A stretch of 64,000 nt of DNA, taken from NCBI RefSeq assembly GCF_003863355.1, contig NZ_QQWG01000008.1:1-64000 (forward strand). Direction: 5' to 3'. Below, in pieces: positions 17,553-44,865 of the stretch. This DNA is from Ancylomarina euxina (GTDB lineage: Bacteria; Bacteroidota; Bacteroidia; Bacteroidales; Marinifilaceae). The notes under the pieces were generated by a model. That model did no database searches. It was not told the DNA's origin and saw nothing but the letters and a program-made list of their open reading frames with translations. A program made the translations under genes and the position numbers. The stretch's first letter is position 1. The number at the start of each line of letters is the position of its first letter.

Positions 17553-19337
17553 TTACTCCAACTCCTTAAGTGCTGCACAAGCAAACACCAAAGGGTACAT
17601 ATCTTCGTAATACCAAAGCGAGGCAAAATAAAGCCCGATTGGTGTCGCTTTAATGTCGTCCAGATTTTCTGGAATAATCTTCATTAAACAGTCAGCTGCA
17701 CGATTAGCCAAACTTGTCTTACCACAAGCTGCCATGGCTCTAAGTGCCAAAGAGGTTTCCTCTATACTTGGTGGCAAATCTTTATCAGCCCCCCATCCTC
17801 CATGGTGATGTTGAACCATAGCTAAAAAGCGAATGGCTTTCTCCATCATAGAATTTAGTCCTGAGTAGCCAGCCTTTTTAAGATCTGAAAGACTATATAG
17901 AACGATAGAAGTTCCATAAACAGGGTTTTGATGATGTTCGGCCAGTTCGTTTCCAAACCAAAGCGGTGCAAACGATCCATCGCGATACTGCGCTTTGCCT
18001 AAATAGGCAATCGCTTTCTTTATTCTTTTATCAATTTTCTTTTGGAACTTTTTATCAAATCGTTCTTTCCAAACAACAAATGATTTAATCGCATGAGCCG
18101 TGATATCGGGACATGAGCTATCGAAAGGTAATTTCCCCCAACCCTTACAAAAGGTTGGGAATCCACCATCGCTATTTTGCATGCCCATCAGCCAGTGGAT
18201 GCCATTTTTCACAACATCCAAAGAAATATCCTCATCTTTATTGAGGTGATGCAAAGCTATTAAGGCCCCCGATGTATCATCAGTATCTGGTACACCACCT
18301 TGTAGATTCGTCCAGGCCCAACCACCAGGTTTGATTTTGGTAAACGGATGAACCACTTTATATTGTTGTTCTATTAGGTTTATTTTGATTTCAGCCTTAT
18401 TATCCAGTTTTGCCAAAGATTCCGAACTCAAAGCATTCAGAGACAAACTACTTACCCATGTGGATAGATTCGTATCGATTGGCCAACTCCCATCTTCTCG
18501 AATAGACTGAGCTAAAAATTGACTTGCTTTATCACAAACTTCAAGCTCGTGATAATTCGCCTTAACCAGACTCATTAAAACAAAAGCTGTTAGGGGTGTT
18601 GCCTCTAAAAAGCCACCATTATCAGGCTGTTTTGCCTTAAGCACATTTAAAACTCTTTTTCTACAAGCGGCTCTAACAATTCGACGAAAAACACCCTTAT
18701 TCGAATTCTGACTTTTAACTAAGCCAATAGCAATTAGAGCTGGAATGGCATAACTCACCACGGAGAGGTTAAGCCATCGAAACAGGCGATTTGGAAAAAT
18801 AGCCAGATGATAAGGCAGTTGAGGAACCAATTTCCATCCTTTCTCACCCAATCGTCCAGAAATGGCACACATGGCCAATATAGGAACGGAAAAAGTTTGA
18901 TCGCTTTTATAATGGTCTAATATGGCTTCACTAATTGCTTCAGGGTCCAAGCTTCCCACTCGTCTTTTCAACCAGATTTCAGCATCCTGAATGGGTTCTT
19001 GAAAGCCCTTTTCTCCATTAACTATAGAAAAAGTAGCCCATGTCAAAAGTGTTGTACTTAAATTACTCTGACTTCTAATGGTATCACCCCAGCCACCGTC
19101 TGGATTTCTATTAGCTATAAGCCACGAAAGCCCTTGATCAATTTCGCTCCTATATTTTTCTTTATCGAATTGACACAAAGCAAAAACAGCAAGAGCTGTT
19201 GACAAAGCACTACTCGACAAACGTCCAGTCCACATGCCCTTTTCGTTTCTCAACGAAAGGATTTTTTGCTCTAAGCTCTGAAAAAGTTGTTTCCTCTTTT
19301 CGTCCATAAATTCAGTAGAATTATAATAAGATTCCAA
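17553..19337 (-). CDS. Squalene-hopene-cyclase-like class II terpene cyclase
   Basis: 594 aa with the double alpha-barrel repeat pattern of squalene/hopene cyclases. Several QW-like repeats are visible (NRNPDGGWGD near 77, QNSDGGFPTF near 387, AQYRDGSFAPLW near 449, QHHHGGWGA near 509). The acid motif GGVPDTDDTSGAL puts DTDD at 351-354, equivalent to the DXDD that protonates the polyene. This implies cyclisation of a linear isoprenoid. It overlaps the preceding cyclase-like gene by 17 bases and follows the prenyl-synthase fusion gene, so the substrate is probably the product of that enzyme. No squalene synthase gene is visible, so calling it a hopanoid enzyme would be unsafe. Confidence 0.82.
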   Translation of the reverse strand: MESYYNSTEFMDEKRKQLFQSLEQKILSLRNEKGMWTGRLSSSALSTALAVFALCQFDKEKYRSEIDQGLSWLIANRNPDGGWGDTIRSQSNLSTTLLTWATFSIVNGEKGFQEPIQDAEIWLKRRVGSLDPEAISEAILDHYKSDQTFSVPILAMCAISGRLGEKGWKLVPQLPYHLAIFPNRLFRWLNLSVVSYAIPALIAIGLVKSQNSNKGVFRRIVRAACRKRVLNVLKAKQPDNGGFLEATPLTAFVLMSLVKANYHELEVCDKASQFLAQSIREDGSWPIDTNLSTWVSSLSLNALSSESLAKLDNKAEIKINLIEQQYKVVHPFTKIKPGGWAWTNLQGGVPDTDDTSGALIALHHLNKDEDISLDVVKNGIHWLMGMQNSDGGFPTFCKGWGKLPFDSSCPDITAHAIKSFVVWKERFDKKFQKKIDKRIKKAIAYLGKAQYRDGSFAPLWFGNELAEHHQNPVYGTSIVLYSLSDLKKAGYSGLNSMMEKAIRFLAMVQHHHGGWGADKDLPPSIEETSLALRAMAACGKTSLANRAADCLMKIIPENLDDIKATPIGLYFASLWYYEDMYPLVFACAALKELE

Positions 19338-20292
19338 TTCCTAAAAGGGCATAATAAGTATACTCAACATCACAGGTCATATCAGCAATACTGCCAAAGA
19401 AACCTCCCGATTCGTCCCAATGCAAATTAATAAAATCAATAGATTTATCGGATAGGACTTGTAAATTTTCACCAGTCATATAAAGTGCTAATAATGCTGT
19501 ACTTGTAGAAAGAATATCGGCTATAGGTAAATCTGAAGCAGCTTTAAAACCTCCTCTTCGCGTGCTATTCTGCTTTAAATAAGCAATTGTACTTTTCCAA
19601 TCGCTATCCTTATCGTATGTCATAATTAGGCCTGCAGCAGTTGCAGAAGTCACACCTGATTGTGAGGAATTATCATTAGCAAAAGAAGCATCTTTACATC
19701 TTAAAGTTTCAATCTGATGGGTTATTCTATTCAATCGAGACGTTTCTTCATTCAAATCATGATAAAGTGTCCAAACCAGAAATGAAGCATAGACTGTCGC
19801 TTGTTCTGCTTGTTTTTCATTGTGATTGTATCCGCCATCATTTGATCTGTAAGACTCAACCAGCTCGAAATAAGGTTGACAATATTTCTTCACTTTTTTA
19901 ATCAAACCTTTCATGAAAATCTTACCAAGAAAGCTGTCAAAGTCCGAAACATTGGGTTTAAAACCGAACTTTTGCTTTTGCTGCATAATCAAAAGCAACA
20001 TGTAACAACGTATAAAACAAACGGCATGAATTAAATCTGCTTCTTGAGTTTCCTTCCATCTCTCTAGAAAAGTGAATTCTTTTTCAATATCAAGCTCAAT
20101 GTCGTAAACGAAAGCTAAAGTGTATCCAAATACGGTGTAATAAATATCAGGCTTTCCAGCTCTATCCTCAAAGCCTCCTTGCTGATATTTTGCACGATCT
20201 ACAAAAGTTCGAATCTGCAACAAAGCCTCATCGCTTAATAATTCTTTAGTCTTGAAAAGAGCTTTTAATATCTCCTGATTGCAGTTTGTCAT
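19321..20292 (-). CDS. Prenyltransferase/terpene-cyclase-fold protein, zinc site lost
   Basis: 323 aa with alpha-barrel repeats of the prenyltransferase-beta/squalene-cyclase superfamily (YQQGGFEDRAG near 36, RSNDGGYNHN near 149, RRGGFKAA near 245, DESGGFFGS near 293). The C-terminal segment CDVEYTYYALLGIG aligns with the zinc-binding end of protein prenyltransferase beta subunits, but the His ligand is replaced and no DXDD motif is present. It is therefore more likely a binding or accessory partner, or half of a two-protein cyclase, than a classic enzyme. It overlaps its neighbours by 4 and 17 bases, implying coupled translation and a shared complex. Confidence 0.75.
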   Translation of the reverse strand: MTNCNQEILKALFKTKELLSDEALLQIRTFVDRAKYQQGGFEDRAGKPDIYYTVFGYTLAFVYDIELDIEKEFTFLERWKETQEADLIHAVCFIRCYMLLLIMQQKQKFGFKPNVSDFDSFLGKIFMKGLIKKVKKYCQPYFELVESYRSNDGGYNHNEKQAEQATVYASFLVWTLYHDLNEETSRLNRITHQIETLRCKDASFANDNSSQSGVTSATAAGLIMTYDKDSDWKSTIAYLKQNSTRRGGFKAASDLPIADILSTSTALLALYMTGENLQVLSDKSIDFINLHWDESGGFFGSIADMTCDVEYTYYALLGIGILL

Positions 20293-21893
20293 CCATTCAG
20301 AATTTTATTCAAAAAGCGAGTCAATAATATTTTCAAGGCAGGACTTTTCAAATCCGCGATACTGCTCAGGGCTTGCAATTTGTAGTCCTCCAGCATCTGT
20401 TCGGCTTCTTTTATGCCTTCACGAATTTCGGTTTGCTTCCAAATTTCTTTTTTACTTAAGTCATCGCCGTTTTGGAAATCCTTAAACCAAACTTCCATTT
20501 TATCTGGATATTTTCGATTAATAAGAGCCGTTACCAATGAGGGTTGAATTGTATTAAAGGCATTATCTAAATTATCATGATTAAAATCTTCCAAATCATC
20601 TTTAATCTGATAGGCTATTCCCAAAGCAGAACTGTAGGCTGTCAGAATTTTCATCACCTCGTCATCAGCATCGGATATAATCGCACCAAACTGCAGAGCC
20701 ACTTCAAAAGCCGGAGACGTTTTCAAACTAAATATCTTAATAATTTTATCCACAGACAGCAGTTTCTTATTTCGTCGCCAAAGCAATTCTTCCCCTTGAC
20801 CTATAGACAAATCTCTATGCCCAAGTGCTGCTATTTTCAAAAGTTTCCGAATATGTTTCGCACCCGATTCTGCTATCAATTGATAGCCGTAACCTAAAAT
20901 TAGATCACCAATATTAATAGCAACTGAAGTATCGTATTGCTTATGTAGTGTAGCCTTTCCGTAACGTTCATTATCATCATCAACAATATCGTCGTGAACC
21001 AATGATGCCTTATGAAAACTCTCAATTGAAACGGCTAATTTTTGAATGCATTCATCCAAATTGACTTCTGTTCCCTTCAGAGCTTTATAAACAGCCACCA
21101 TAATTAATGGACGCCAACGCTTTCCTCCTTCAGCCAACCAATCTCTGGAAATCTGTGAGCTTTTATCATCACCCTCCAGCATATACTCTAATTGCTCTTT
21201 CTCAAACCATGAATCAACTTCTGACCTTAAAGCATCAATGTTGATCCATCCTCGCCAATTACTTTCCCTGCGAATAGGCAAAACTTCATTCAACCAAATT
21301 TCATCAACTTTAGAATCCTTACAGTCGTTATTATACAAAGGGATGGCAATGGAAGGAACTCCCTCTTTTACAGCTAAAGGAAATGATCGTTCGAAAGAAT
21401 GTAAACAGCCAACACCAATCACACATTCAACCTTTCCAGAAGTTAATAGCGTTGTAACTGTCGTTGTGCCTTCGCTCACAAGTGTATGATAGCCTAATTC
21501 GTCAGCTTGAGTTAAAATATCAGCAATATCACATTTTCCACACTGTTCACAAAGCAGACCCAATTCGTCGAATTGAGCTGGACAATCTGTAGAGTGAGAA
21601 ATACATTTCGGAAGTAATAAGATGCGTCGATTGAAAGGAATGCCAGAAACAATATCGCGCCAAGAATGATTGTTGATCATGACAGCCAATAGCTTTTGAT
21701 ATAAAAAAAGCTCAGGATGCTTCTTAATCAATTCGCCAGAATGAAAGATAACTTCTTCCTCCTGCAAAGGAGGAACTAATTCTTTCTCTGCCGCATAATC
21801 ACAAATCAAATCCCGTATTTGTTTCAACTTTTCAGGCGATTGAGGCAAACCATTTCCCAATTTCCCTGAAGGCTTATCTTTTCTTAATATCAT
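20289..21893 (-). CDS. DUF116-polyprenyl synthetase fusion protein
   Basis: 534 aa. Residues about 60-205 form a DUF116-like domain with conserved cysteines (C97, C104, C115, C118, C121, C157, C163; CEQCGKC in the middle), a likely Fe-S or metal site. Residues about 235-534 are a trans-isoprenyl diphosphate synthase: GGKRWRP near 256, first aspartate-rich motif DDIVDDD at 301-307, QGEE near 365, and second motif KDDLEDF at 431-437. The synthase half appears catalytically complete and should make a linear prenyl diphosphate; chain length cannot be read with confidence. The stop overlaps the start of the cyclase-like gene by 4 bases. Confidence 0.85.
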   Translation of the reverse strand: MILRKDKPSGKLGNGLPQSPEKLKQIRDLICDYAAEKELVPPLQEEEVIFHSGELIKKHPELFLYQKLLAVMINNHSWRDIVSGIPFNRRILLLPKCISHSTDCPAQFDELGLLCEQCGKCDIADILTQADELGYHTLVSEGTTTVTTLLTSGKVECVIGVGCLHSFERSFPLAVKEGVPSIAIPLYNNDCKDSKVDEIWLNEVLPIRRESNWRGWINIDALRSEVDSWFEKEQLEYMLEGDDKSSQISRDWLAEGGKRWRPLIMVAVYKALKGTEVNLDECIQKLAVSIESFHKASLVHDDIVDDDNERYGKATLHKQYDTSVAINIGDLILGYGYQLIAESGAKHIRKLLKIAALGHRDLSIGQGEELLWRRNKKLLSVDKIIKIFSLKTSPAFEVALQFGAIISDADDEVMKILTAYSSALGIAYQIKDDLEDFNHDNLDNAFNTIQPSLVTALINRKYPDKMEVWFKDFQNGDDLSKKEIWKQTEIREGIKEAEQMLEDYKLQALSSIADLKSPALKILLTRFLNKILNG

Positions 21894-21962: not shown

Positions 21963-23162
21963 CTAACCGTAAGCTCCAAATCCAAAAAAGGAATATTTCT
22001 TGGCAAATCGATAAACAAAACTCTTTTCTGGAATCTCTTTCCCTGGAATATGATGGCCGGCACAAGGTCTCATCTGACTCAATTCGTTAAAACCTGCATT
22101 TCTATTGGAAGAATCATAGGCCCCAGAGTCCTTCAATATGGTATTTAAATATTCTGGATCGTCGAGTAAAATACAGCCTTGAGTTTTATTATTGATTCGA
22201 GTTCGCATACTCTTTAGGAAATCAGAATTCTCAATCACAGAACCTAAATCTTTTCCATTGCCAATATTCTCTTTAGCAAATTGAATGGGCGGACAGAATT
22301 CGATATCGCCAAAAGGGTTAATATGATGACTCAAACCAATGGCTCCTGGACACAAAGCTTTCCCTTTTTCATCCCAATAGGTGTCGATAATCATCAAGGG
22401 TGCTTTCACTCGAATATCAACCATAAACTGTCTGAGTTCAAGAATTTCTTCTTCAGACAAAGCCAAGTCAGTCGTAGGGCGTGCTCCAACGGGTCTATAA
22501 ATATAGTACCACAGGTAATGAACTCCCTTTGCTATGCATGCATTTATAAAATCTTCGCTAACTAATTCCTTAAAGTTCGATTTGCAAACCGAAGTCGCAA
22601 CACCCGTAAATAGCTTATTATTCACAGATGCTTCAATACCTTTCATGGTTCGACCATAAACATCATTGGCTCCTCTTCTAACATCACTCACATCTTTTAG
22701 CCCCTCAACACTTATAAGTGGTGAAACATTTCCTAAAGACCTCATCCGCTTAGCATACTCATCAGATAAAAGAGTGCCATTCGTAAAGAGCTGGAAGTAA
22801 CAGTCTGAGTGTTTCTCCATCACATCAAACAAATGTGGGTACATTAAAGGTTCTCCACCCAAAAGTCCGAAAAAATACGATCCCTTCTTCTTTCCAGATT
22901 CTATCACATTATTAAGCGTATCAACATCCATTCCTTTGGATTTATTATCGATACTCACCCAACAACCCTGGCAGTTCAGATTGCAGTTATCAGTCAATGA
23001 AATCATTAAAAAAGCAGGAAATAACTCGCCCTTCTTCAACCTTTTCTTATGTTTTGCCACAGTGCGCATACCTTTCCAACCAAGGTTATAAGCTATCTTC
23101 CAAAGTAATCGAAAGTCCACTTGTCGCATAATTCTACTTCCTAATTTTAAAATCATATTCAA
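21963..23162 (-). CDS. Radical SAM protein of the terpenoid cluster
   Basis: 399 aa. The radical SAM cluster motif TDNCNLNCQGCW gives C60, C64 and C67, and GGEPL at 102-106 is the SAM-binding motif. C-terminal cysteines (CPGAIG, EFCPP, GCILLDD, RPCAGHH) suggest an additional cluster, as in SPASM-type proteins. The start and the end (KYSFFGFGAYG) are hydrophobic and basic, suggesting membrane contact. Substrate unknown; a modification of an isoprenoid or lipid is plausible by context, and HpnH is a precedent for radical SAM enzymes in triterpenoid pathways. It follows the ferredoxin gene by 9 bases, a likely electron donor. Confidence 0.82.
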   Translation of the reverse strand: MNMILKLGSRIMRQVDFRLLWKIAYNLGWKGMRTVAKHKKRLKKGELFPAFLMISLTDNCNLNCQGCWVSIDNKSKGMDVDTLNNVIESGKKKGSYFFGLLGGEPLMYPHLFDVMEKHSDCYFQLFTNGTLLSDEYAKRMRSLGNVSPLISVEGLKDVSDVRRGANDVYGRTMKGIEASVNNKLFTGVATSVCKSNFKELVSEDFINACIAKGVHYLWYYIYRPVGARPTTDLALSEEEILELRQFMVDIRVKAPLMIIDTYWDEKGKALCPGAIGLSHHINPFGDIEFCPPIQFAKENIGNGKDLGSVIENSDFLKSMRTRINNKTQGCILLDDPEYLNTILKDSGAYDSSNRNAGFNELSQMRPCAGHHIPGKEIPEKSFVYRFAKKYSFFGFGAYG

Positions 23163-23171: not shown

Positions 23172-24014
23172 TTAGCAGCAACAGTTCTTATCCGATCCCT
23201 CATCCTTACAATCACAATCAGGCTCTGTTTCTGTTTTGCAAATACAATCGCATTCGCAGGCCTTATCTTGTGGCTCTTCTTTAGTGCTACAGTTTATTCT
23301 TTCTTCCTCTGCCATTTTCAGCTGCTCCTTTTTCAAAAGCGAAACCTTAAAATTGCTGCGTCGAGCACTTAAAACAGAATAAACATCGTCGTTCTGAATT
23401 TGCTCCAAAATATTATCTCCCGATAACATTACACCTTCTCCACCATCAATAGGGCTTTCGGCGTGCTTGGGAAAAATAATGGCATTTTGTGGACAAACAC
23501 GAGCACAAGCCGGGCACATATCCTTACAATTGGCCGAAGCCGAAACAACAACGCTTCCATCATCTTCTACTGAATAAACACTAAACAAGCAAAAGTTAAG
23601 GCATTTTCTGCAACCATTACAGCGCTCATAATCGATAACCGGATACCAAGGTTTCCATTCATCGGCATATTTAATTTTCAGAGCTTTAGGATTATCTGTT
23701 TTTACCGATTCAACAAGTTTGTTGCCATCCGCATCGTCTATATGATAGTATTCTGTTTTATTCTCGTGAATTTTCTTCCCACTATTGCTTATTAGATTCT
23801 GCATAGCACGAGATTGACAACCAAAAACAAGTGCATCTGCAGCAGTAAATAAGCTTTCCAAAGCATCTGGCGTTTTAAGTACAGTCCCACAAAGATCTTC
23901 GATATAAGTGTAACCCATATTCTTCTCCTCTAGACTATGAATCAATCTTTCTACAGATTTCTTCTCAATCTTCCCATCTTTCTCACAACCGCAAATAAAT
24001 ATTTTCTTAGTCAT
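23172..24014 (-). CDS. Ferredoxin-like protein with Cys-rich tail
   Basis: 280 aa from the ATG at 24014, chosen over an upstream start at 24083 because the extra stretch is repetitive intergenic DNA and an AAAGAA site precedes 24014. The N-terminal part (about 1-110) looks like a small alpha/beta domain beginning KKIFICGCEKDGK. Two [4Fe-4S] motifs follow (CNGCRKCLNFC and CKDMCPACARVCP). The C-terminal tail carries about ten cysteines (CECDCICK, CDCKD, CCC), unusual for a ferredoxin and possibly metal-binding. It is adjacent to the radical SAM gene, so it may supply electrons or handle metal for it. Confidence 0.8.
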   Translation of the reverse strand: MTKKIFICGCEKDGKIEKKSVERLIHSLEEKNMGYTYIEDLCGTVLKTPDALESLFTAADALVFGCQSRAMQNLISNSGKKIHENKTEYYHIDDADGNKLVESVKTDNPKALKIKYADEWKPWYPVIDYERCNGCRKCLNFCLFSVYSVEDDGSVVVSASANCKDMCPACARVCPQNAIIFPKHAESPIDGGEGVMLSGDNILEQIQNDDVYSVLSARRSNFKVSLLKKEQLKMAEEERINCSTKEEPQDKACECDCICKTETEPDCDCKDEGSDKNCCC

Positions 24015-24085
24015 ATTCTTTAGATTTGAATAATTTGAAATGAAATGAAATGTGAGATTTGAAACCTCACACCTATAAGTCACAT

Positions 24086-25300
24086 CTAGCCTTGAGCTTT
24101 TATATTATATGCCATTAAAACATTGCCATGACGAATGTACAAGATACCATTATTAATAACGGGTTGAGCAAAATGCTCTTTGGTTCCTTTTTCTACTTTA
24201 AATGAACTAATGATCTCCATTTTAGGCTCAGTTTTTACCAAAGCTACTTTTCCTTGTTCGTTATAGCAATACAAAAAACCATTTGCTGCGATAGTTGCTC
24301 CTCGTCCGAACTTTAAACTGTCAACCATATCACCTGAATTGGAATCAATTGCTTTCCATTTCTTTTTACGATGACCAGAAGCAAAGATCTTATCATTCAC
24401 TTTTACCGCCCCACCCATAATATTATCAAGCTGCTTATTTCTCCACATTTCTGTGATCTGACTTCCGTCCTTTGAGATTTGAAGTTTCACCGTACCATTA
24501 CCACATCCGGCAACATAGTACAAATAGCCATCTTCGAATATTGGTGTATTTCCATGAATATCACAAAGTGTGTCTTGCATATGAGACCATAGCAATTCCC
24601 CTGTCTGAGATTCCAGTCCGAAAAGAGCATTATCTGAAAAAGTAACCAGAACATTGCGAGTTGGGAATTCAAGCAATAGTGGAGAACAGTATGCTGGAAC
24701 CTCACCAAAAGCTTTATTGGTCCACTTGGTTTCACCTGTAAAACGATCTAAGGCAACAATATTCACATCCTCTCCTCCCGGAGCACAATACACCAAATCG
24801 CCATCAATTTCTAAAGATTGAGAATAACCAAATCGCGTGTTCTTCCCTTTGAATTTCTCAATCATATTCAATCCCCACTTTTTCTCACCTGTCTCCGTAT
24901 CGATACAAGCAATATCTCCCATACTTGATGCAACATAGACCAAACCATTAACTACAGTTGGAGCTGAACGACTACCAACAAAGTTCTTTGTCCAATCTCT
25001 ACCAAATTCAGTCTTCCAAAGCATTTCCCCCTTTAAGTCGAAGGCCATTAAATAAGCTAAACTATCAATTTCGCCATTAATAAAAAGCTTATCGTGAGTG
25101 ATCACAGGTGATCCGTATCCATTACCAACACCTTCGTGTTCCCATAATAAGACTGGGCCATCTGCAGGCCATTCTGTCAACAAATTCGATTCATCGTAGA
25201 TTCCCGTTCGATTTTCACCACGCCATTGACTGACTTCTTTCTTTTTTGGAGTACATGAAAAAAACAGTACCAAACAGATTAATAAGCTTAAATTTTTCAT
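24086..25300 (-). CDS. PQQ-like beta-propeller lipoprotein (copy 1 of 6)
   Basis: 404 aa with a lipoprotein signal (LVLFFSCTPKKK, Cys16). The mature start SQWRGENRTGIY is the signature of this propeller family, followed by blades with the [AF]xDxxTGExxW pattern (CIDTETGEKKW, ALDRFTGETKW, GLESQTGELLW). It resembles the propellers at 42205-43452 and 43660-44865 in length and motif order. PQQ binding is not shown and no quinoprotein active site is evident. It is likely an envelope-anchored scaffold or binding protein. It lies between the FtsX permease and the ferredoxin gene. Confidence 0.85.
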   Translation of the reverse strand: MKNLSLLICLVLFFSCTPKKKEVSQWRGENRTGIYDESNLLTEWPADGPVLLWEHEGVGNGYGSPVITHDKLFINGEIDSLAYLMAFDLKGEMLWKTEFGRDWTKNFVGSRSAPTVVNGLVYVASSMGDIACIDTETGEKKWGLNMIEKFKGKNTRFGYSQSLEIDGDLVYCAPGGEDVNIVALDRFTGETKWTNKAFGEVPAYCSPLLLEFPTRNVLVTFSDNALFGLESQTGELLWSHMQDTLCDIHGNTPIFEDGYLYYVAGCGNGTVKLQISKDGSQITEMWRNKQLDNIMGGAVKVNDKIFASGHRKKKWKAIDSNSGDMVDSLKFGRGATIAANGFLYCYNEQGKVALVKTEPKMEIISSFKVEKGTKEHFAQPVINNGILYIRHGNVLMAYNIKAQG

Positions 25301-35110: not shown

Positions 35111-35170
35111 TGTTTCTTTTTCAAGCATCATCACATTAACACATCATCAGATTACCATATCAGCTCATCA

Positions 35171-37066
35171 TCATTTTCCTATACAATAAAGGTTCTTTCC
35201 TGCGCGGATAAAAATATGACCATCAGCAAAGGCAGGTGTTGAATCTGTCTTTTCACCTATATTTGATGTCGCAATGGATACAAATTCTTTGTCAGCTTTA
35301 AAAATGTGCATGCTTCCGGCTCTGTCTATTAAGTATATTTTACCATCAACCCAAATTGGCGAAGCATAAAAACCACTGTCAAACTCGTGCTCCCAATACA
35401 GTTCTCCTGATAAAGCATCGTAACAAGCCACAAGCCCATATGATGTCACAACAAATAAATATTTATCCGTGGCAACAGGACTTGGCACATCAGACAGGTA
35501 ATCGTATGCTTCCCAAAGAACTTCAGGTTTATCACCCGTCTTGATAGCAACCAAACTGGCATATTCGTTAAGAGCAAACACAATTCCATTGGCATAAGCG
35601 ACCGATGGTCCAACCTCTCCTGTGATGCAATCCAATTTCCACAACTCTTCACCTGTTTGTGCATCATAGGAAGCCACACAAGGATCAGCTGCTAATAGAA
35701 TTTCAGCACGTTCGCCATTTTGAACAATAACCGGAGACGCCCACGACACTTTCACTTTTCTGGCTGTACTCCACATTTCATCTCCCGTTTTAGTCGAAAG
35801 AGCCATGATTTTTCCAGCCTTTTTGTGATCAAATTGTACAATCAGCTTATCTTCAAAAACAATTAAGGAAGACGAATGCCCATAATGATTCTCAGGAACA
35901 CCTAAATTCTTAGACCAGACCGATTTTCCATTCATATCCAAAGCGATAAGATCACCATTAGAAAAAATGGCAAAAACAAAAGTACCATCCGTACTTACAC
36001 TCGATGCTGCATGTCCCGTATCGGGAGTTACTTCTGGTGCCGCAGCACTTCCTGATATGTTTTTAATATCAGCTGTCCATAACAATTTACCAGAATTTCT
36101 ATCGTAGCAATAAACCTGTTTTTTGCTTGCATCAGCTCCCGATAAGAATAGTTTATTCCCCCAAATCACAGGTGAGTTATAGGCATGTAAAGGCGTACTA
36201 ACTTTCCATTTGATATTCTTCCCGCTGGCTCCATCCCATTCGGTAGGCATATTTTTGTGATAAGCGATACCATTCCCTCCAGGTCCTCTGAAAGAAGGGA
36301 AGTTTGCCATCATCTCCTTACTTGGATATTGACCTGTATATTTTGGGGCAGCAGGTGTTTCTTCAGTTTCTACAGCTTTTTCAACAGACTTCGATTTTGC
36401 TATTTCTTCAACAGTAGTTTCAACAATCTTTTTCGTTTCAATTTTTTCAGCATTGACTTCTTTAACAGCAAGCTCTTTCTCAATTTCTTCTGGTTTATCT
36501 GCCACTACGGCATCTGGCGACACTTCATTGGCAAGTTCAGTTTTCGCCTTTGCTATTTGAGCCGCATCGGTAAATCGTGTCCCTAAGTCTTTATGTGTGA
36601 TAAAAGCCAATATCAAAGTCACAAGCACTAAAGCTGATCCTCCAATACCAACCCATTTCCTGGCATTTTGCTGATAGCTGATTATATTTTGACTGTACTC
36701 TTCATCAACAGAAGGCAATGTTTTTTTGCCCATTTTCATGATCTGCATGGCAATGATCATCACAATAAGAGAAAACAGTAAAAGGTAGGCTCCCGTTCTC
36801 ACTTCCCACTGGTTGGTGAAAAAAGCTTTACGAACCAAAAGATCCATCTCTCTGATTTGTTCCCGCAGTTGATTATCATTAGGATTGTCGTTCAATCGTT
36901 CCACCAAAGCATTAATCACTTCGGTATTGACAGGATCAACCTTATTAATTTGCATATAATTGACAATAACCATGGCACAAATCAAGATGGCAAAAACGCC
37001 AGATACTATGGCAACTCCTCGCCATAGAGGAAGATTGATTGTTTTACTTGAAAATTCTGTTTTCAT
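35171..37066 (-). CDS. Membrane-anchored PQQ-like beta-propeller protein (copy 3 of 6)
   Basis: 631 aa, the largest propeller of the cluster. Three membrane segments lie at about 17-38, 92-110 and 138-157, with a helical loop between the first two. A Glu/Lys/Val-rich linker (about 165-245) follows, then the propeller from FPSFRGPGGNGIAYHKN (about 255) to the end, with blades such as CYDRNSGKLLW, ALSTKTGDEMW, SYDAQTGEELW and CYDALSGELYW. It is likely an inner-membrane anchor that displays the propeller in the periplasm. The 415 bases upstream hold the 21-bp repeat array and a leader of about 100 bases. Confidence 0.85.
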   Translation of the reverse strand: MKTEFSSKTINLPLWRGVAIVSGVFAILICAMVIVNYMQINKVDPVNTEVINALVERLNDNPNDNQLREQIREMDLLVRKAFFTNQWEVRTGAYLLLFSLIVMIIAMQIMKMGKKTLPSVDEEYSQNIISYQQNARKWVGIGGSALVLVTLILAFITHKDLGTRFTDAAQIAKAKTELANEVSPDAVVADKPEEIEKELAVKEVNAEKIETKKIVETTVEEIAKSKSVEKAVETEETPAAPKYTGQYPSKEMMANFPSFRGPGGNGIAYHKNMPTEWDGASGKNIKWKVSTPLHAYNSPVIWGNKLFLSGADASKKQVYCYDRNSGKLLWTADIKNISGSAAAPEVTPDTGHAASSVSTDGTFVFAIFSNGDLIALDMNGKSVWSKNLGVPENHYGHSSSLIVFEDKLIVQFDHKKAGKIMALSTKTGDEMWSTARKVKVSWASPVIVQNGERAEILLAADPCVASYDAQTGEELWKLDCITGEVGPSVAYANGIVFALNEYASLVAIKTGDKPEVLWEAYDYLSDVPSPVATDKYLFVVTSYGLVACYDALSGELYWEHEFDSGFYASPIWVDGKIYLIDRAGSMHIFKADKEFVSIATSNIGEKTDSTPAFADGHIFIRAGKNLYCIGK

Positions 37067-37480: not shown

Positions 37481-38782
37481 TCATCTCTCAACAGGGCAAT
37501 ATTTTAAACAGCGAGCACAGCTCACACACTCAGCCTTATCAGGCGTGTAATCTTCACGATATTTAAATACAGATAAGCTTGATAGTGTCAATCCGAAAAC
37601 TAGACCTAAAAAGCCTCCCAAAATCCAAGCTCCTAAATAAAATTGCTCTACAATAACAGCTGCTTCAGAATACAATTCCTGAACCGGAGTTCCCGCTGTT
37701 TTGAAAGCTTCTATCTCCACTGAAGGCAACATCACATCAGGTTTAAATAGCATGAGTTCATTCGCCAAGCGAACTTTCGTATTTACCTTGGCTAAATTCT
37801 CATGAAAGTTTGAAAGTGTCCAACCACCCAATATCATCAATAAGGGTATGATCAAACTCAATCTTATAAATCGTTTAGTTGCCGATGGTCTGTCTTCCAT
37901 CACCTTTACCGGAACGGGCTTATTGATGGCTCCCAATGGACAGGAATCTTCACACAATCGACATTGAATACATTTATTGGGCGTAATGGTCAGGTGATGT
38001 TTCGAGAAACGACTCATCCAATTCAGAAGAACGCCATATGGGCAAAAGAATCGACAATAAGGACGAGCGACAAAAGCACTCAGCAAAAGAAAAATAGCCC
38101 CGATAGTAAACATGAAAAAAGTGGCATCGAATCGGTAGATTCCTACAAAAGGATCGTATCTGCAAATGATAAAATCGGTAGCTGTTGCTGCATACAAAAC
38201 AGACAATCCTAAATAGATATAGGGAATTAAACCTAAAACTTTCTGCAACCAAGTTTTCATTGTAACAGGACGCAATAACAAAACATCCTGAATGGCTCCC
38301 AAAGGACAAACACCTGCACAAAAGGTTCGTCCAAAAAATAAGGTATAAACAAGAGGGATAACAAAAAATGCCAAGGCTGATATGGGTATGCTATATTCAG
38401 GTTGAAAGAGTGCCAATGTCACATTTTGCAGAGACCCCACCGAACAAATACAGCCCTCACGAAAGAAGCCAAAATAAAGAATAGAAAATACCGACATAGC
38501 CAGAACGCCTCGCCTTGATCGCTTCTTTAAAATCAGCCAAGTAATTAATGATAATGCAATAACAAGAATCAAAACATCGAACCATGCATAAAAATCAGCT
38601 CTAGCCTCGGGCATTGAAGTGACGGGCTGCGTATAGCCTGATTCAAATTCCGGTTTTGGAAATCGCTGTTGTTGCGCAAAAAGAGGAAAACCTGAAGTCA
38701 ATAATAAAATAAACATTGACAGCATAGTGACAAGCTTCTTTATATTCCCGGTTTGTGTTAAGTATTTTAAAATTTCTGACAT
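37481..38782 (-). CDS. NapH/NosR-like membrane polyferredoxin
   Basis: 433 aa. An N-terminal signal-like helix (about 18-36) and about five further membrane segments surround the conserved Cys motifs CICSVGSLQN (111-120), FCAGVCPLGAIQDVL (155-169) and YCRFFCPYGVLLN (242-254). A [4Fe-4S] site follows at C271/C274/C277/C281 and a second at the extreme C-terminus (C419/C422/C425/C429, ending CPVER). This is the core of the NapH/NosR/CcoG family, which moves electrons between the quinone pool and periplasmic Fe-S proteins. The Tat-type ferredoxin gene directly upstream is the expected NapG-like partner. Confidence 0.88.
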   Translation of the reverse strand: MSEILKYLTQTGNIKKLVTMLSMFILLLTSGFPLFAQQQRFPKPEFESGYTQPVTSMPEARADFYAWFDVLILVIALSLITWLILKKRSRRGVLAMSVFSILYFGFFREGCICSVGSLQNVTLALFQPEYSIPISALAFFVIPLVYTLFFGRTFCAGVCPLGAIQDVLLLRPVTMKTWLQKVLGLIPYIYLGLSVLYAATATDFIICRYDPFVGIYRFDATFFMFTIGAIFLLLSAFVARPYCRFFCPYGVLLNWMSRFSKHHLTITPNKCIQCRLCEDSCPLGAINKPVPVKVMEDRPSATKRFIRLSLIIPLLMILGGWTLSNFHENLAKVNTKVRLANELMLFKPDVMLPSVEIEAFKTAGTPVQELYSEAAVIVEQFYLGAWILGGFLGLVFGLTLSSLSVFKYREDYTPDKAECVSCARCLKYCPVER

Positions 38783-38812: not shown

Positions 38813-39382
38813 TTAGTCTTTCTGTTCTTTTTTAAAACCGGAAAACTTATAAGGTTCATCAGCTGGCACACGTGAAAATGCATCGGAAGGACAATCACGT
38901 GCAATGGCACATTGATTGCAATTCACACACAAATCGTGGCTTATCTGCAATTGAAGCGATCCGTTTCCAAAAGCACCACAACCTTTCACACATTTACCAC
39001 AGCCAATACACAAATCTTCAATTATTTCATATTCAAAGAATGGATCTTCAACATACTTCCTTTTAATTGCGCCAGTTGGGCAAAGTTGATTTTCAGCACC
39101 CGTGGTAATATTTTTCACATTGGGACGCAAATAGCCACCACACAAATCGCAATAGCCACACATATCGTATACATGAATACATTTCACCGCTGAAGGTGTC
39201 ATTACACATGAGGTGGCACATCGTCCACATTGGGTACACTTTGTGGTATCAATTTGCCAAAGCGTATTCCCGGACACAGTCTTATGTGCCAAAACACCAG
39301 TCACCCCAACCAAGCTAGCTCCTGCAGCAAAGCGAAAACACGTATTGATAAAATCTCTTCTATTTTTTCCTTTTTCAGCCAT
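38813..39382 (-). CDS. Tat-exported NapG-like ferredoxin with four Fe-S motifs
   Basis: 189 aa. A twin-arginine signal (NRRDFINTC, R8-R9) precedes a hydrophobic stretch. Four cysteine motifs follow (CTQCGRCATSC, CGYCDLCGG, CIGCGKCVKGC, CVNCNQCAIARDC), the pattern of NapG/MauM-type ferredoxins carrying four [4Fe-4S] clusters. It should be exported folded and exchange electrons with the NapH-like protein, whose gene starts 30 bases downstream. No nitrate or nitrous-oxide reductase is present, so the acceptor is unknown. Confidence 0.88.
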   Translation of the reverse strand: MAEKGKNRRDFINTCFRFAAGASLVGVTGVLAHKTVSGNTLWQIDTTKCTQCGRCATSCVMTPSAVKCIHVYDMCGYCDLCGGYLRPNVKNITTGAENQLCPTGAIKRKYVEDPFFEYEIIEDLCIGCGKCVKGCGAFGNGSLQLQISHDLCVNCNQCAIARDCPSDAFSRVPADEPYKFSGFKKEQKD

Positions 39383-39691: not shown

Positions 39692-40657
39692 TTAATATTT
39701 TAGTTCAAAAATTCGAACCATTTTACGTGAAGGATCTAAAACTATAATTCTATCATTAGAATCAACTGCTAAATCCAAACCTGTTGTACCAGCATCGAAT
39801 TGATTAGGAGCTGCAACTACCGATTTAAAATCGCCCGATGGCAAATGAATTTTTATTCTCTCCAATCCTTTTTCACTTGTCACAAATGAGCCATCAGATA
39901 ACATAGCCACATGACTAGGATTACAACAACCACCAAAACCATCAACTTGCATGGAAGTTCGCTCCCATGAAGAAATCAAATCACCTTTATCGTTATAAGC
40001 TTCCAGAGCATGTCGCCCAGGGTTCACAACCCAAAGCTCGCCTTGTCGACCAAACATGAGGTCGAAATAAGGACTTGGTATAACAAAGCCACGAATGCCT
40101 TTATCAAGATTCTTAGCACCAATAATATTGATTTTATTTCCATCTATTGTATACTGATGAACGATCTTTTGTCCTGCGTCAGCAATAAAAACATGGCCTT
40201 CTCTTTCTACCAAACTACTGATATAGGCTTTCGCTCCTTTTATTTGAAAACTATTATTCAACCCGCCGTCTGGTTTACGCACATCAACACGATTTCCAAC
40301 ACCTAACAGAATATTACCAGATTCAGAAATACTCACAGCGTGTGCATCGCCTCGCACTTTCATGCTTGATTGAACTTGTCCTTGCGAATCAAAAATCCAA
40401 AGCTTATCGGTACCACTCACATAGATTCGATCTTCAGCATCTATGGCAAGTCCGAAAACAGCTTCTGAATTAATTTTAAAAGAGAAGACTTCCTTATAAG
40501 CAATCAATGATGAATCTACCTTCCTCAACTCCTTAAGATCGTACTCATAGATATTTTTTTGTGGCTTTGGTTTCTCAAGAAACAAGTCGCCTGCAATTAA
40601 GCCTACCAAAAGAAGTAAGAGAACAATAGAAAAAATTAGACCTAGCTTATTCTTCAT
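39692..40657 (-). CDS. Membrane-anchored NHL-type beta-propeller
   Basis: 321 aa from the ATG at 40657, chosen because MKNKLGLIFSIVLLLLLVG gives a clean membrane anchor; the frame is open to 40696. The mature part has NHL/six-bladed repeats (LAIDAEDRIYVSG near 72, LVEREGHVFIADAG, LAVDSNDRIIVLD near the end). A conserved-looking GGCCNPSHVAMLSDG contains two adjacent cysteines and may be a ligand or metal site. It lies between the ferredoxins and three PQQ-like propellers, so it probably belongs to the same envelope assembly. Confidence 0.82.
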   Translation of the reverse strand: MKNKLGLIFSIVLLLLLVGLIAGDLFLEKPKPQKNIYEYDLKELRKVDSSLIAYKEVFSFKINSEAVFGLAIDAEDRIYVSGTDKLWIFDSQGQVQSSMKVRGDAHAVSISESGNILLGVGNRVDVRKPDGGLNNSFQIKGAKAYISSLVEREGHVFIADAGQKIVHQYTIDGNKINIIGAKNLDKGIRGFVIPSPYFDLMFGRQGELWVVNPGRHALEAYNDKGDLISSWERTSMQVDGFGGCCNPSHVAMLSDGSFVTSEKGLERIKIHLPSGDFKSVVAAPNQFDAGTTGLDLAVDSNDRIIVLDPSRKMVRIFELKY

Positions 40658-40766
40658 CTGTTTGAAATTAGATTTGAGTATCAAGAAGTGAGACATGAGA
40701 TGATTTACATCTTCTAGTGTATTTAATTATAGATTGCTTCATATCTCGCTTTTTCATAATCTGATA

Positions 40767-42194
40767 TTAATTTGCACGCAAATCGATACAAAGCATGTGT
40801 TTAGAATCTCTCATCAGCAATCGACCATCAGTTATAACCATAGGCCCCCAGGCATCATGTCCATCAATAAGTTTCACTTTATCGAGTAATTCAAACTTCT
40901 CAGTTGTTGCTCTGGCTATGGTTAATTCACCATTATCTTTCAGAATAAAAAACTTCCCATCGGCGACCAAATAAGGACCTAAACCAAAGCGATCCGTCTT
41001 GCCACTTGTCCACAAAATCTTTGTACAATCGTTCGGATCGCAACAAACAAACTGATTACGCATAGCTCCCGCATCCTTTGGCAGAATTGTAAACATGCGA
41101 CCTTTATATATAATTGGCGTCTGTTGTTCAGATGCCATTCCATCTTTTGGCTTGTATTTCTGTAAGGTTTCAACCTGATAAGAATTACCTGATTTTTTCA
41201 CTTGAAAGAGAACTCCTCCAGCACCATATCCTGCAGTCATAAACACTTTCCCATCACCATAAATTAAGGGAGATGGAGCAATAACTGATGGAGAAAAATC
41301 TTTTGTTTTCCAAAGAATTTGCCCAATGTCATCGCCTTCGGCTGATACGCCACAGATTCCACCAACGGCTGCATAAACCCACATTTTTTTTCCATCCAAA
41401 ACCATTGCCATGATTGAAGAGTGCGACATTTTCCATCCATCAGGATTAGGTGTTTCCCACAAAACCTTACCTGTAGCACAATCAACACCAATAAGCAGAG
41501 CTTTACCTCCAGGTGCAATTATGGCAACATTATTATCGATAATTGGACATTGCCCGGTATACCAAAAAGGAATTTCAGACTGATATTCTTTGACCAAATC
41601 CAATCCCCACAAGAAATCTCCTGATTCAGGATTCACACACATCACATGGCAACGAGGTCCCATACTTACAAGATACTTGTCGTTAATTGCAGGAACAGTT
41701 CTTGACATTCCGTGATTTCTTTTCACATGAACCTTATACGATCGTTTCCAAATTTCTTCACCAGTTTCCAAAGAAAAACATCGAAGAGCATCTGCCTTTT
41801 TCACCTCATCGTAATCGAGCAAGTAAACCTTCCCATTATAAACAACGGGTGCAGCATGGCCTTCTCCCAAATCATGTTTCCACAATATTTTAGGTTCAGA
41901 TCCGATTTTATCGACAAGCTCAATTTTTTCCTTAGAGATATTATCAAAATTAGCACCTCTAAACTGGGTCCATTTTCCAATTAAACTTGAAGTATGCTCA
42001 ATATATGATTTAAATTTCTCTCCAATGATCACCTCATCTATAGCTTCGGTTCCAGCCTTTGGACGATTATCCAGACCTGGCACACTCGCTGAGAAATCCT
42101 GAACTGGATCGTAGCGTAACCAGGAAACAAATATTGAGATGGCTATAACAACAACCACAGTCAGAAAAAGAATATTTATCGTTTTTTTACTCAT
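40767..42194 (-). CDS. PQQ-like beta-propeller with N-terminal anchor (copy 4 of 6)
   Basis: 475 aa. A single N-terminal membrane segment (about 7-24) is followed by a spacer and by the family start WTQFRGANFDNI (about 75). The propeller has blades such as CFSLETGEEIW, CVNPESGDFLW and GVDCATGKVLW. Compared with the other copies it has a longer N-terminal region and additional loops. Its stop lies 72 bases from the NHL propeller gene, and its start is 10 bases past the stop of the next propeller, so these genes are co-transcribed. Confidence 0.85.
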   Translation of the reverse strand: MSKKTINILFLTVVVVIAISIFVSWLRYDPVQDFSASVPGLDNRPKAGTEAIDEVIIGEKFKSYIEHTSSLIGKWTQFRGANFDNISKEKIELVDKIGSEPKILWKHDLGEGHAAPVVYNGKVYLLDYDEVKKADALRCFSLETGEEIWKRSYKVHVKRNHGMSRTVPAINDKYLVSMGPRCHVMCVNPESGDFLWGLDLVKEYQSEIPFWYTGQCPIIDNNVAIIAPGGKALLIGVDCATGKVLWETPNPDGWKMSHSSIMAMVLDGKKMWVYAAVGGICGVSAEGDDIGQILWKTKDFSPSVIAPSPLIYGDGKVFMTAGYGAGGVLFQVKKSGNSYQVETLQKYKPKDGMASEQQTPIIYKGRMFTILPKDAGAMRNQFVCCDPNDCTKILWTSGKTDRFGLGPYLVADGKFFILKDNGELTIARATTEKFELLDKVKLIDGHDAWGPMVITDGRLLMRDSKHMLCIDLRAN

Positions 42195-42204: not shown

Positions 42205-43452
42205 CTATGCTTTAATTTTATAGGCCATCAATGCATCTTCGTGACGGACATATAGAATACCATCTTTTATAACCAGATGTGACCAATGAGGACCTTTACC
42301 CAAAGGCACTTTAAAAGAACTAATCACGTTAAAGCCATCAGGACTTGCTTTAGACAATGCGATATTCCCACCTTTTTCATCGTAGCAATACAACATCCCT
42401 TCAGCTGAAATGATCGAACCCTTATTTTCCCATTCTGTCTCGTACATAGCCTTACCAGTCTTCCATTCCAGGCAAACCCATTTTCCCATTCGGTTGTGTT
42501 CCCAATTAGAGCCATATACATAATTGCCTAAGCGAACCGCACCACCATGATGTACATCTAATAAAGAATCAACATAAGCTAGTTTTACAGAAGAAGCATC
42601 TTCATTTAAATCAAGCATTACCGATTTATGATCGTAACCGTTGGTCACAAATATTTTCCCTTCGTGATAAAGCGGTGTATTGGTTTGAATATTTGCTTTC
42701 CACTCGCCTCCTGCGTATTCTGCATAATTGAAAGTCCAAACTATTTCGCCAGTTTCAGGATTAACGCCTATGACATTATTTTCTGTAACAGTAACAATAA
42801 GTTTCGTTCCATTACGGTCAACCATAAGAGGCGAAACATAGCCTGGTTTATCTTTTAAACTTTTAGATTGCCAAACAGTTTCACCCGTATTCTTATTTAA
42901 GGCAATCATAGTCGTTTTCTCACCACATGGTGTATAATAAACGTAATCGCCATGCAATAATAGAGATTCTGAGATTCCCCACTGACCATATGTTCCTTCG
43001 AATTTCTCACTCGCTTTCACCTGCCAAAAGATATCTCCCGTGAGGGCATTCAAACAAGCTAAATCACCCTTCCCACTCGAAAGATAAATCCTATCATCTT
43101 GAATTGTTGGCGTACAACGACTATCAGGAAAGGTGTTATCCCAACGGCGACCATAAGGCACTTGCCATTTAAGCTGTCCTTTCATATCAACGGCCATCAA
43201 AACATCCATGGAATCTTTGATTCCTGTTAAATAAACCAAATCGTTAACGACTGCAACCGATGAATAGCCTTTAGGAATATCAGTTAATGACCACAACATT
43301 TCGGGCCCCTTCTCAGGCCATACTTTCAATAAGCCCGTCTCATTATAAACCCCTGTTCGGTTTGGTCCACGCCATTCACTTTGGGATTTTGGAGAGTTAC
43401 ATTGAGAGAAAATTGTGATGGCTGCAAAGCCAAGTAAAAACAGTCGTTTCAT
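42205..43452 (-). CDS. PQQ-like beta-propeller lipoprotein (copy 5 of 6)
   Basis: 415 aa. The lipoprotein signal ends in FSQCNSPKS (Cys18). The mature start SEWRGPNRTGVYNE is the cluster signature, with regular blades (CLNALTGDIFW, ALNKNTGETVW, GVNPETGEIVW). The C-terminal WSHLVIKDGILYVRHEDALMAY matches the ends of copies 1 and 6, so these three are close paralogues. A minus-strand promoter-like element lies at 43516-43549. Confidence 0.86.
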   Translation of the reverse strand: MKRLFLLGFAAITIFSQCNSPKSQSEWRGPNRTGVYNETGLLKVWPEKGPEMLWSLTDIPKGYSSVAVVNDLVYLTGIKDSMDVLMAVDMKGQLKWQVPYGRRWDNTFPDSRCTPTIQDDRIYLSSGKGDLACLNALTGDIFWQVKASEKFEGTYGQWGISESLLLHGDYVYYTPCGEKTTMIALNKNTGETVWQSKSLKDKPGYVSPLMVDRNGTKLIVTVTENNVIGVNPETGEIVWTFNYAEYAGGEWKANIQTNTPLYHEGKIFVTNGYDHKSVMLDLNEDASSVKLAYVDSLLDVHHGGAVRLGNYVYGSNWEHNRMGKWVCLEWKTGKAMYETEWENKGSIISAEGMLYCYDEKGGNIALSKASPDGFNVISSFKVPLGKGPHWSHLVIKDGILYVRHEDALMAYKIKA

Positions 43453-43549: not shown

Positions 43550-43556
43550 TAACAAA

Positions 43557-43579: not shown

Positions 43580-43659
43580 ATTTCATCCTTAATCAAACTA
43601 AAGAAGAATAGTATTAAGATCGAGTCTTATTAAGACAGTAAATCAAATCGTATTTAAAC

Positions 43660-44865
43660 CTAAATTCCGTAAACCATAAATGCACCACCATGACGGACAT
43701 ACATTCTATTTTTATGAATCACCAAGTGCGCCCAATGCTGTTTTGTTCCCATAGGAACACGGAAAGAACTAACTTTATTAAATGAATCCCCCTTAATATC
43801 AATTAGTCCAATTTCACCATTATCACCGTAGCAATACAACATGCCATCAGCAAAAATTACATTCCCCTTGGCTATTGCCTTTGATGAATAAATTTCTTTA
43901 CCTGTCTTCCAATCGACACAATACCACATGCGATTATTATGTCCTGACACATAAATTTTACCATCGACTAAAACTGCTCCTCCCATTTGATTATCGACAA
44001 AAGCATTTCGCCACAACTCTTTAACAGCAGAACCATCCTCAGATAATTGAAGCATCACTCCACCTTTGCCATAACCACTGAAACAAAATAGTTGCCCATC
44101 TTTAAATAAAGGTGTATTGGGGTGAATATCGTATTGATTCTTATGCTCGAAATTCCAAAGCATCTCACCATTCTTAATATCAATTCCAATAATAGATCCA
44201 CCGGTATGTGTTACCAACAAGGAACGTTTTCCACGCTTAACTAGAAGAGGAGAACAATAAGCTGACTTTTCACCCATCGCTTTTGTTTTCCAAATGAGTT
44301 CACCCGTTTTCTTATTTACGGCAATGACATTAGCCTCTTCACCTCCTGGAGTACAGAACAATCGATCACCTTCAATCAAAAGATTTTCGGTCATACCGAA
44401 ACGAAGATTTCTACCTCCATATTCAGTCAACATATTTTTAGACCAAACTTTCTCTCCATTTTCAGCAGACATTGCAACTAACTCACCATGGCCACTCATA
44501 ATGTATAAAAGACCATCATTCAACAAAGGTGTACCTCTAACACCATCGTAATTATCCATCCACTCCTTGGCGTAGTTCTTTTTCCACAACTGTTTTCCCG
44601 AATGATCAAAAGCGATAATAAAACCCTGATCACCATCAACGCCTCCGGTATACACTCTCGAATCTGTTACTGTAGCTGATGCATGCCCATCACCCAAGGC
44701 ATCATAATGCCACAAAAGTTTAGGTCCAGCTTCTGGCCATTTTTTCAATAAACCTTTGGCATTATATTTCCCATCACGGTTTACGCCGCGCCATTGCGAC
44801 ATATTCTGAGAATGAGACTGAAAGACAATCATCAAACTAGCAACTAATAAAAAAAGAGATCTCAT
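43660..44865 (-). CDS. PQQ-like beta-propeller, secreted (copy 6 of 6)
   Basis: 401 aa with a cleavable signal (MRSLFLLVASLMIVFQSHSQ). The mature start SQWRGVNRDGKYNAKG is the family signature, with blades AMSAENGEKVW, AVNKKTGELIW and GIDIKNGEMLW. It is the most upstream gene of the cluster and a close paralogue of copies 1 and 5, but it lacks their lipobox cysteine. A possible weak terminator and a new promoter follow, so it may be transcribed partly on its own. Confidence 0.86.
   Translation of the reverse strand: MRSLFLLVASLMIVFQSHSQNMSQWRGVNRDGKYNAKGLLKKWPEAGPKLLWHYDALGDGHASATVTDSRVYTGGVDGDQGFIIAFDHSGKQLWKKNYAKEWMDNYDGVRGTPLLNDGLLYIMSGHGELVAMSAENGEKVWSKNMLTEYGGRNLRFGMTENLLIEGDRLFCTPGGEEANVIAVNKKTGELIWKTKAMGEKSAYCSPLLVKRGKRSLLVTHTGGSIIGIDIKNGEMLWNFEHKNQYDIHPNTPLFKDGQLFCFSGYGKGGVMLQLSEDGSAVKELWRNAFVDNQMGGAVLVDGKIYVSGHNNRMWYCVDWKTGKEIYSSKAIAKGNVIFADGMLYCYGDNGEIGLIDIKGDSFNKVSSFRVPMGTKQHWAHLVIHKNRMYVRHGGAFMVYGI

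Follow-up and report, generated by a model that had tools for sequence, protein, structure and literature searches.

Why should the genes for what appears to be the synthesis of a terpenoid stand in one line with those of an electron-transfer system in a marine member of the Bacteroidales? This question is raised by a cluster of genes in Ancylomarina euxina (Marinifilaceae; assembly GCF_003863355.1, genome of 4.4 Mb), found in the first 64,000 nucleotides of the 194-kb contig NZ_QQWG01000008.1, a stretch referred to here as the window. The cluster (positions 17553-44865) consists of 19 genes, all on the minus strand, which are lettered by position from A (the last gene) to S (the first). The original prediction, made from the sequence of the window, had counted twenty co-directional genes, of which the common direction stands and the number does not.

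The cluster is made up of two conserved modules, a cassette, E-D-C-B-A, and a redox module, S-R-Q-P-O-N-M-L-K-I-H-G (Table 1). The reading preferred here, to which a probability of approximately 0.6 is assigned, is that these are two co-selected modules, that is, a terpenoid cassette and a bifurcating transmembrane redox line. The arrangement goes beyond chance, given that the same order of genes is found again in other families and in another phylum. The redox-coupled terpenoid system that had been predicted is well supported in its parts, with a terpenoid set and an apparently transmembrane redox set that are conserved and repeatedly linked, but not as one indivisible 27-kb system.

Most of the components named in the original prediction were recovered, including the prenyl diphosphate synthase (C, here a fusion with DUF116), the radical SAM enzyme (D), the six PQQ-like propellers (F, I, M, Q, R, and S), the NHL propeller (P), the FtsX/ABC exporter pair (G and H), and the NADH flavoprotein with its partner (L and K), although the Bfu type of this last pair had gone unseen. 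The two predicted cyclase-fold proteins, A and B, do share the fold, but only A has a DxDD motif.

Table 1. Genes of the cluster and the hairpins that flank it, with the basis of each assignment.
Feature	Position	Strand	Length (aa)	Assignment	Basis
A	17553..19337	-	594	Class II (DxDD) terpene cyclase, squalene-hopene cyclase superfamily	Pfam SQHop_cyclase_C 2.1e-35, SQHop_cyclase_N 9e-13
B	19321..20292	-	323	Alpha-alpha barrel, protein-prenyltransferase beta subunit fold	No DxDD
C	20289..21893	-	534	DUF116 fused to trans-isoprenyl diphosphate synthase	Pfam DUF116 3.2e-27, polyprenyl_synt 7.9e-42
D	21963..23162	-	399	Radical SAM enzyme, CxxxCxxC and further invariant Cys, conserved C-terminus FFGxGxYG	Pfam 7.4e-17; alignment of 7
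E	23172..24083	-	303	Fe-S protein, Cys-rich N-terminal domain and two 4Fe-4S motifs	Sequence matches, motif scan
F	24086..25300	-	404	PQQ-like propeller, lipoprotein-like signal (by eye)	PQQ_2 8e-21
G	25368..28652	-	1094	FtsX/MacB-type permease, 10 transmembrane (TM)-like segments	PF02687 2.1e-23
H	28744..29430	-	228	ABC ATPase, partner of G	PF00005 1.6e-35
I	29452..30558	-	368	PQQ-like propeller	Sequence match
J	30654..30965	-	103	GIY-YIG protein	Sequence match
K	31086..32597	-	503	BfuA-like subunit: 2Fe-2S domain, further cluster motifs, GltD-type FAD domain	Sequence matches, solved relatives
L	32762..35134	-	790	Fused BfuC-BfuB (NuoE, extra 2Fe-2S domain, NuoF, two C-terminal 4Fe-4S)	Sequence matches, solved relatives
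M	35171..37066	-	631	PQQ-like propeller, three N-terminal TM-like segments	Sequence match
N	37481..38782	-	433	NapH/MauN-like membrane Fe-S protein, 7 TM-like segments	Sequence matches
O	38813..39382	-	189	Ferredoxin, probably exported, twin-Arg start, four CxxCxxC motifs	Sequence match, motif scan
P	39692..40696	-	334	Membrane-anchored NHL propeller, invariant CC pair (GCCNP)	Sequence match, alignment
Q	40767..42194	-	475	Membrane-anchored PQQ-like propeller, conserved KRNHG	Sequence match, alignment
R	42205..43452	-	415	PQQ-like propeller, lipoprotein-like signal (by eye)	Sequence match
S	43660..44865	-	401	PQQ-like propeller, signal-like start, first gene of the cluster	Sequence match
Hairpin	17514..17549	-		Terminator-like, directly 3' of A	15-pair stem and T tail
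Hairpin	45044..45074	-		Terminator-like, upstream of S	14-pair stem and T tail

The Probable Terpenoid Cassette

The cassette E-D-C-B-A very probably makes a cyclic terpenoid, as suggested by the families of its proteins and the residues conserved in them. The 35 sequences aligned for A show no variation at residues D351, D353, D354, D411, and H415, and the DxDD motif lines up with that of the squalene-hopene cyclase (SHC), which is found among the profile matches (1.9e-29). This protein shares the motif, an SHC-like length, and QW-type repeats (by eye) with the squalene-hopene and other class II terpene cyclases, but differs from them in that the host has no squalene synthase match, and in its genetic association with the fusion of DUF116 and a prenyl synthase and with a radical SAM enzyme. 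In C, both of the DDxxD motifs of the trans-isoprenyl diphosphate synthases are present (positions 301 and 432), while seven cysteines of the DUF116 part (97, 104, 115, 118, 121, 163, and 191) are invariant in 45 sequences, and a structure model of this domain comprises four strands and helices, with block means of about 73-90.

The beta subunits of the protein prenyltransferases have an Asp-Cys-His zinc site. B differs from these subunits (RabGGTase beta, for example), given that the 40 B sequences share no Cys or His that is invariant, or nearly so, and could bind zinc. A pair of true DxDD cyclases was also considered, and was rejected because B lacks the motif.

A further alternative is that of a disguised hopanoid or carotenoid pathway, in which A would use squalene made elsewhere, as its membership of the SHC superfamily and the presence of a squalene/phytoene synthase in eight of 21 cassette genomes might suggest. 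The other 13 genomes, that is, the A. euxina genome and 12 others, have none, and the search (SQS_PSY) that gave no match in A. euxina (G000) returned one in seven of 14 control genomes. In addition, A scores 99.7 bits against the curated hopene cyclase cut-off of 431.1, and is accompanied by C in the mapped loci. This alternative is thus highly improbable, and such a pathway was rejected for the host on the basis of the cyclase score and the lack of a synthase match. Given this lack, a polyprenyl diphosphate is a likelier substrate of A than squalene.

The Redox Module and Its Probable Bifurcating Core

The chemistry of L and K is probably that of the electron-bifurcating Bfu type. The best solved relatives of L are 9n5u_B (NfnB), 9bov_B, 8oh5_B, and the hydrogenase B subunits, and those of K are the partner chains 9bov_A, 8oh5_C, and 9n5u_A, with 8oh5 being an Stn enzyme. 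In K, 19 Cys and two His are kept in all 25 sequences aligned, five of them planctomycete. The ligands of L were followed in 22 sequences (five planctomycete), with the residues being assigned to the named clusters in the present analysis. The C1 ligands (C87, C92, C129, and C133) and B5 ligands (C193/194, C224, and C228) are kept wherever covered, as are those of B1 (650, 653, 656, and 696), except for C656 (20/22), and those of B3 and B4 are also kept. The B2 ligands (C633, H720, C725, and C730) are kept in all the covering sequences (22/22 or 21/21), and were placed by their spacing, within one residue, against the published C438, H525, C531, and C536, rather than by alignment to that protein.

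In the parts of the study of Schut et al. (PMC9304861) that bear on this point, the Bfu family is defined by a BfuBC core with six clusters, and the B2 histidine ligand is found in nearly all the bifurcating BfuB, with eight exceptions among 1558, and is absent from the non-bifurcating homologues. L and K hold the BfuBC ligands, including this diagnostic histidine, together with a BfuA-like FAD subunit, in which they resemble HydABC, StnABC, and NfnABC. They differ in the fusion of BfuC and BfuB in L, and in the partners with which the gene order associates them, these being propellers together with NapH-like and exported Fe-S proteins, rather than a hydrogenase, a dehydrogenase, or a complex I arm. 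The same source predicts two membrane-bound Bfu types (Mbh-Bfu and Nuo-Bfu), and its main text contains neither “PQQ” nor “NapH”; the redox module looks like a new membrane-bound type.

A transmembrane electron path through this module is reasonably likely, judging by the cofactors and predicted location of its proteins. N has 15 invariant Cys (38 sequences) and O has 16 (40 sequences), while M, P, and Q carry hydrophobic anchors. N resembles NapH and MauN, although no quinol or reductase partner is known for it, and O presumably resembles the ferredoxin-type partners of these proteins. The predicted absence of a cytochrome c motif held in a scan of A-S and two neighbouring proteins (21 in total), none of which has a CxxCH haem motif.

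The path may also run in the reverse direction, with the exported propellers oxidising a periplasmic compound, and O-N-K-L bifurcating the electrons to NADH and ferredoxin, which would feed the radical SAM step. The Bfu enzymes are described as reversible in the relevant passages of PMC9304861, and S, R, F, and I match models of PQQ and BamB-type propellers. Reverse flow would, however, take the electrons against the membrane potential, no catalytic residues were identified in the propellers, and PqqC was found in none of 37 genomes, although the control genomes gave no match either. This direction is thus quite improbable, and an outward flow, from NADH and ferredoxin to a periplasmic acceptor, is favoured because it runs with the membrane potential.

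Distribution of the Cassette

When one genome per species was scanned with D, in a total of 84,980 species, 198 relatives were recovered and 80 loci were kept, many of whose contigs end inside the cassette. These loci contain D in all 80 cases, C in 77, E in 76, B in 72, and A in 67, and all five genes were found, at a stricter cut, in 53 loci, planctomycetes included. The closest named relatives of D are those of Ancylomarina salipaludis and Ancylomarina sp. (94 and 93% identity), with others being found in Draconibacterium, Maribellus, Carboxylicivirga, Parabacteroides, Prevotella, Alistipes, Pirellula, Brocadiia, and Kiritimatiellota. In 11 genes compared with two Ancylomarina loci, the ratio of non-synonymous to synonymous substitutions (dN/dS) ranges from 0.018 to 0.111, with dS mostly above 1 and saturated.

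In 149 genomes of the same order, the fusion C, D (at least 48% identity), and A are each present in the same seven genomes, C being split between two contig pieces in G137, and the weaker matches of D (32-38%) in G071 and G115, together with a second one in G112, were left out of the count. In a sample of 146 Pirellulales genomes, D is present in 75, the centre genome included. The 14 Pirellulales stretches have A and C beside D in 11 cases, A and D in one, and D alone in two. The neighbours vary among the stretches, some of which have GcvH-like, CobW, and aminotransferase-V (cysteine-desulfurase-like) genes, and others, genes for aldehyde and iron alcohol dehydrogenases and for a HemN-like protein, as judged from the scan of one representative of each.

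A small conserved gene, c7, adjoins C in six of the 14 Pirellulales stretches (L154-L159, e.g., L155:2105-2650, minus strand). It appears by eye to be chorismate-lyase-like, and would be in keeping with a cassette that makes a lipid-linked redox cofactor, such as a meroterpenoid with a quinone-like head on a cyclised prenyl chain, as the membrane carrier of the redox line itself. As a chorismate lyase, c7 is a weak candidate, and was rejected: it has no Pfam or NCBIfam match, its profile matches 2nwi, which we take to be of the chorismate-lyase kind, at E 0.21, and it has no match in 102 Bacteroidales-side loci. The cluster contains no aromatic prenyltransferase, and Q is found without the cassette. 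A redox cofactor of this type is therefore very improbable, even though DUF116 is described, in the passage of PMC5898192 that deals with it, as a predicted metal-binding electron-transfer domain.

Linkage of the Two Modules

The co-occurrence of the modules, which the original prediction had put forward as a check, was found to be partial. At least one of the genes I and K-Q stands beside the cassette in 40 of the 80 loci, which speaks against the independent scatter that would have refuted the prediction, whereas the occurrence of each module alone agrees with a part of that refuting condition. In the 149 genomes of the order, Q (at least 47% identity) is present in 26, including all seven cassette genomes (Fisher p=2.3e-6, a value that ignores kinship, two of the seven being of one genus). 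Thirteen of 18 stretches from 17 of the genomes with Q keep the order Q-P-O-N, most of them extending to M, L, and, where reached, K and I; one of the 18 is a D-E contig, none has the cassette beside Q, and four of these genomes hold the cassette on another contig. The order Q-P-O-N-M-L-K is identical in five Pirellulales loci (L170, L171, L177, L180, and L187), with shorter runs in others.

The redox genes are found in two main arrangements, either before E, as in the window and other Marinifilaceae, or after A (G023 and many others). A quick tree was built from 92 D proteins, 18 of them in rows that carry no label; on it, the linked or unlinked label requires five changes, and the label “after A” four, counted as gains or losses. 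One of the rows with the latter label belongs to a metagenome-assembled genome (MAG) of the Brocadiia, in which an F-like gene, E, D, C, B, A, Q, P, O, N, and M form a single run (L112:6216-19658), with an even guanine-cytosine content of 0.58-0.60. When 50 cassette genomes from the 80 loci were tested for O, it was present in 43, at 57% identity or more in 42, and the unlinked Draconibacterium and Maribellus loci have O elsewhere in the genome. In the Pirellulales sample, a strong O (E <1e-45) is present in 15 genomes, 11 of which have D, and the D copies in all 11 belong to a divergent group (39-44%). A phylum-wide sample of 395 genomes was uninformative, given that D (E 1e-80) and O (E 1e-40) were matched only in the A. 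euxina genome, with at least five others of the same order in the sample.

A glycosyltransferase-like protein (by eye) is located between I and H in one locus (L057, 11194-12486, plus strand) and after G in another (L044, 13753-15000, plus strand).

A number of observations weigh against the reading of two co-selected modules. Nineteen of the 26 genomes of the order with Q lack the cassette, and Q is accompanied by S or H at most, rather than by redox genes, in four of the 18 stretches. At least 16 of the 80 loci are unlinked, with 9 kb or more on both sides. O was not found in seven of the 50 cassette genomes tested, and eight of the 43 matches contain one or two stop codons. A strong O is present in 11 of 75 D-positive Pirellulales (absent from 64) vs. 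four of 71 D-negative genomes, and seven of the 11 genomes with both show D without A or C nearby, so that D may be a paralogue in these cases. In the D tree, two large clades account for most of the linked loci, and the row of the planctomycete sits on a long branch. With regard to the proteins, D, A, K, and N are all far below their best-matching curated models, with D, for example, scoring 43 bits vs. 225.05 for HpnH (adenosyl-hopene transferase), and N, 54.1 vs. 213.05 for NapH. The fifth position of the B2 ligands (671, by spacing), described as Cys or Thr in the corresponding passage of PMC9304861, is variable, with K in the window and T or C in seven of 17 sequences. Finally, the cluster contains no known terminal enzyme.

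The modules are separable, and neither requires the other, as indicated by the genomes with Q that lack the cassette, the few D-positive Pirellulales with a strong O, and the cassette genomes with no O. This favours a rival explanation, in which two unrelated modules are merely adjacent, a general membrane terpenoid (with a hopanoid-like strengthening role) and a separate redox job having been brought together by shared regulation, under anoxia, for example, or by inheritance. The presence of O elsewhere in the genome where the Draconibacterium and Maribellus loci are unlinked is consistent with this account, which is possible, but is held only tentatively here, given that Q is present in all seven cassette genomes of the order, and that the linkage, which extends to a planctomycete MAG, takes two forms, the label changing five times on the D tree.

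Proposed Mechanism

While the families, ligands, gene order, and linkage are read directly from the sequences, the reactions, the direction of the electrons, and the shared role are inferred. In the cassette, C would build a polyprenyl diphosphate, which would be protonated by the DxDD acid of A, leading to its cyclisation, while the probable task of B, which has the fold of a prenyltransferase beta subunit and lacks conserved zinc ligands, is to hold the prenyl chain or to channel it. The electrons for D may come from E and the DUF116 domain, and D would then modify the terpenoid product.

In the redox module, L-K would exchange electrons between NAD(H), ferredoxin, and a third partner. The way to this partner would lead through N, in the membrane, and O, the exported ferredoxin with four clusters, and the line would end at the periplasmic propellers (M, P, and Q, which are anchored, and S, R, and F). 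The route L/K-N-O-propellers is suggested by the predicted location and cofactors of these proteins. G-H may export a lipid or lipoprotein.

The terpenoid is most likely found in the same membrane, where it would serve the electron line without being indispensable to it. Given that each can be found alone, the terpenoid and the redox module are unlikely to be essential to one another, and a supporting role of the terpenoid in this membrane, or simple co-regulation, fits best. The chance that the modules have a shared role is slightly below even, and the export or redox activity of the terpenoid is put forward as a hypothesis. It is rather unlikely that the cluster represents a new membrane energy system common to the Bacteroidota and Planctomycetota, in which a bifurcating NAD(H)/ferredoxin complex would deliver electrons through a NapH-type Fe-S conduit to periplasmic propellers, with a purpose-made cyclic terpenoid lipid as the membrane partner or carrier.

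Borders and Neighbouring Genes

Inside E-D-C-B-A, the genes are separated by gaps of 9 and 69 nt, followed by overlaps of 4 and 17 nt, while the other gaps in the cluster reach 414 nt. Terminator-like hairpins flank the cluster, but sites of this kind exceed those of shuffled sequences only slightly overall (19 vs. 12.7, standard deviation 4.0, and 14 vs. 7.5, standard deviation 3.1). J is probably a passenger gene, given that it has no counterpart between K and I in the Ancylomarina locus L063. When 687 unlabelled open reading frames were clustered in the search for additional conserved partners, no recognised terminal enzyme was found (named by eye), and the groups present at 10 or more loci were two regulator-like ones (22 and 10 loci) and two restricted to 11 Marinifilaceae loci.

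Just downstream of the terminator of the cluster is the gene of an integrase-like protein of 198 aa (16645-17241, minus strand), and a match to the D1-D4 domains of a group II intron is cut by the edge of the window (1-160, minus strand). Upstream, there is a methyltransferase gene (45156-45746, minus strand), whose coding sense seems to continue in another frame near the 3' end (by eye), and the sign of the GC skew switches near MraZ-like and RsmH-like genes (46508-48000, named by eye).

Relation to Known Systems and Implications

No description of either module was found in the openly licensed PMC literature, and a search by terms of papers on the Marinifilaceae or marine dehalogenation returned no passage that would connect the redox module with reductive dehalogenases. 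The DUF116-polyprenyl synthetase fusion is known from Pirellula staleyi (Psta_0175), where the passage concerned in PMC5898192 merely notes it, with no link to a cassette, to cyclases, or to a redox module.

If the reading of two co-selected modules is correct, the Bacteroidales of the gut and the sea, as well as planctomycetes, would make a class of terpenoids for which squalene is not needed, and the DUF116 domain, in its fusion with a prenyl synthase, would gain a named gene set and a testable function. The redox module would be a third membrane-bound Bfu type, beside the Mbh-Bfu and Nuo-Bfu predicted in the passages cited of PMC9304861, and a candidate for one of the 17 clades that are listed there without an assigned function.

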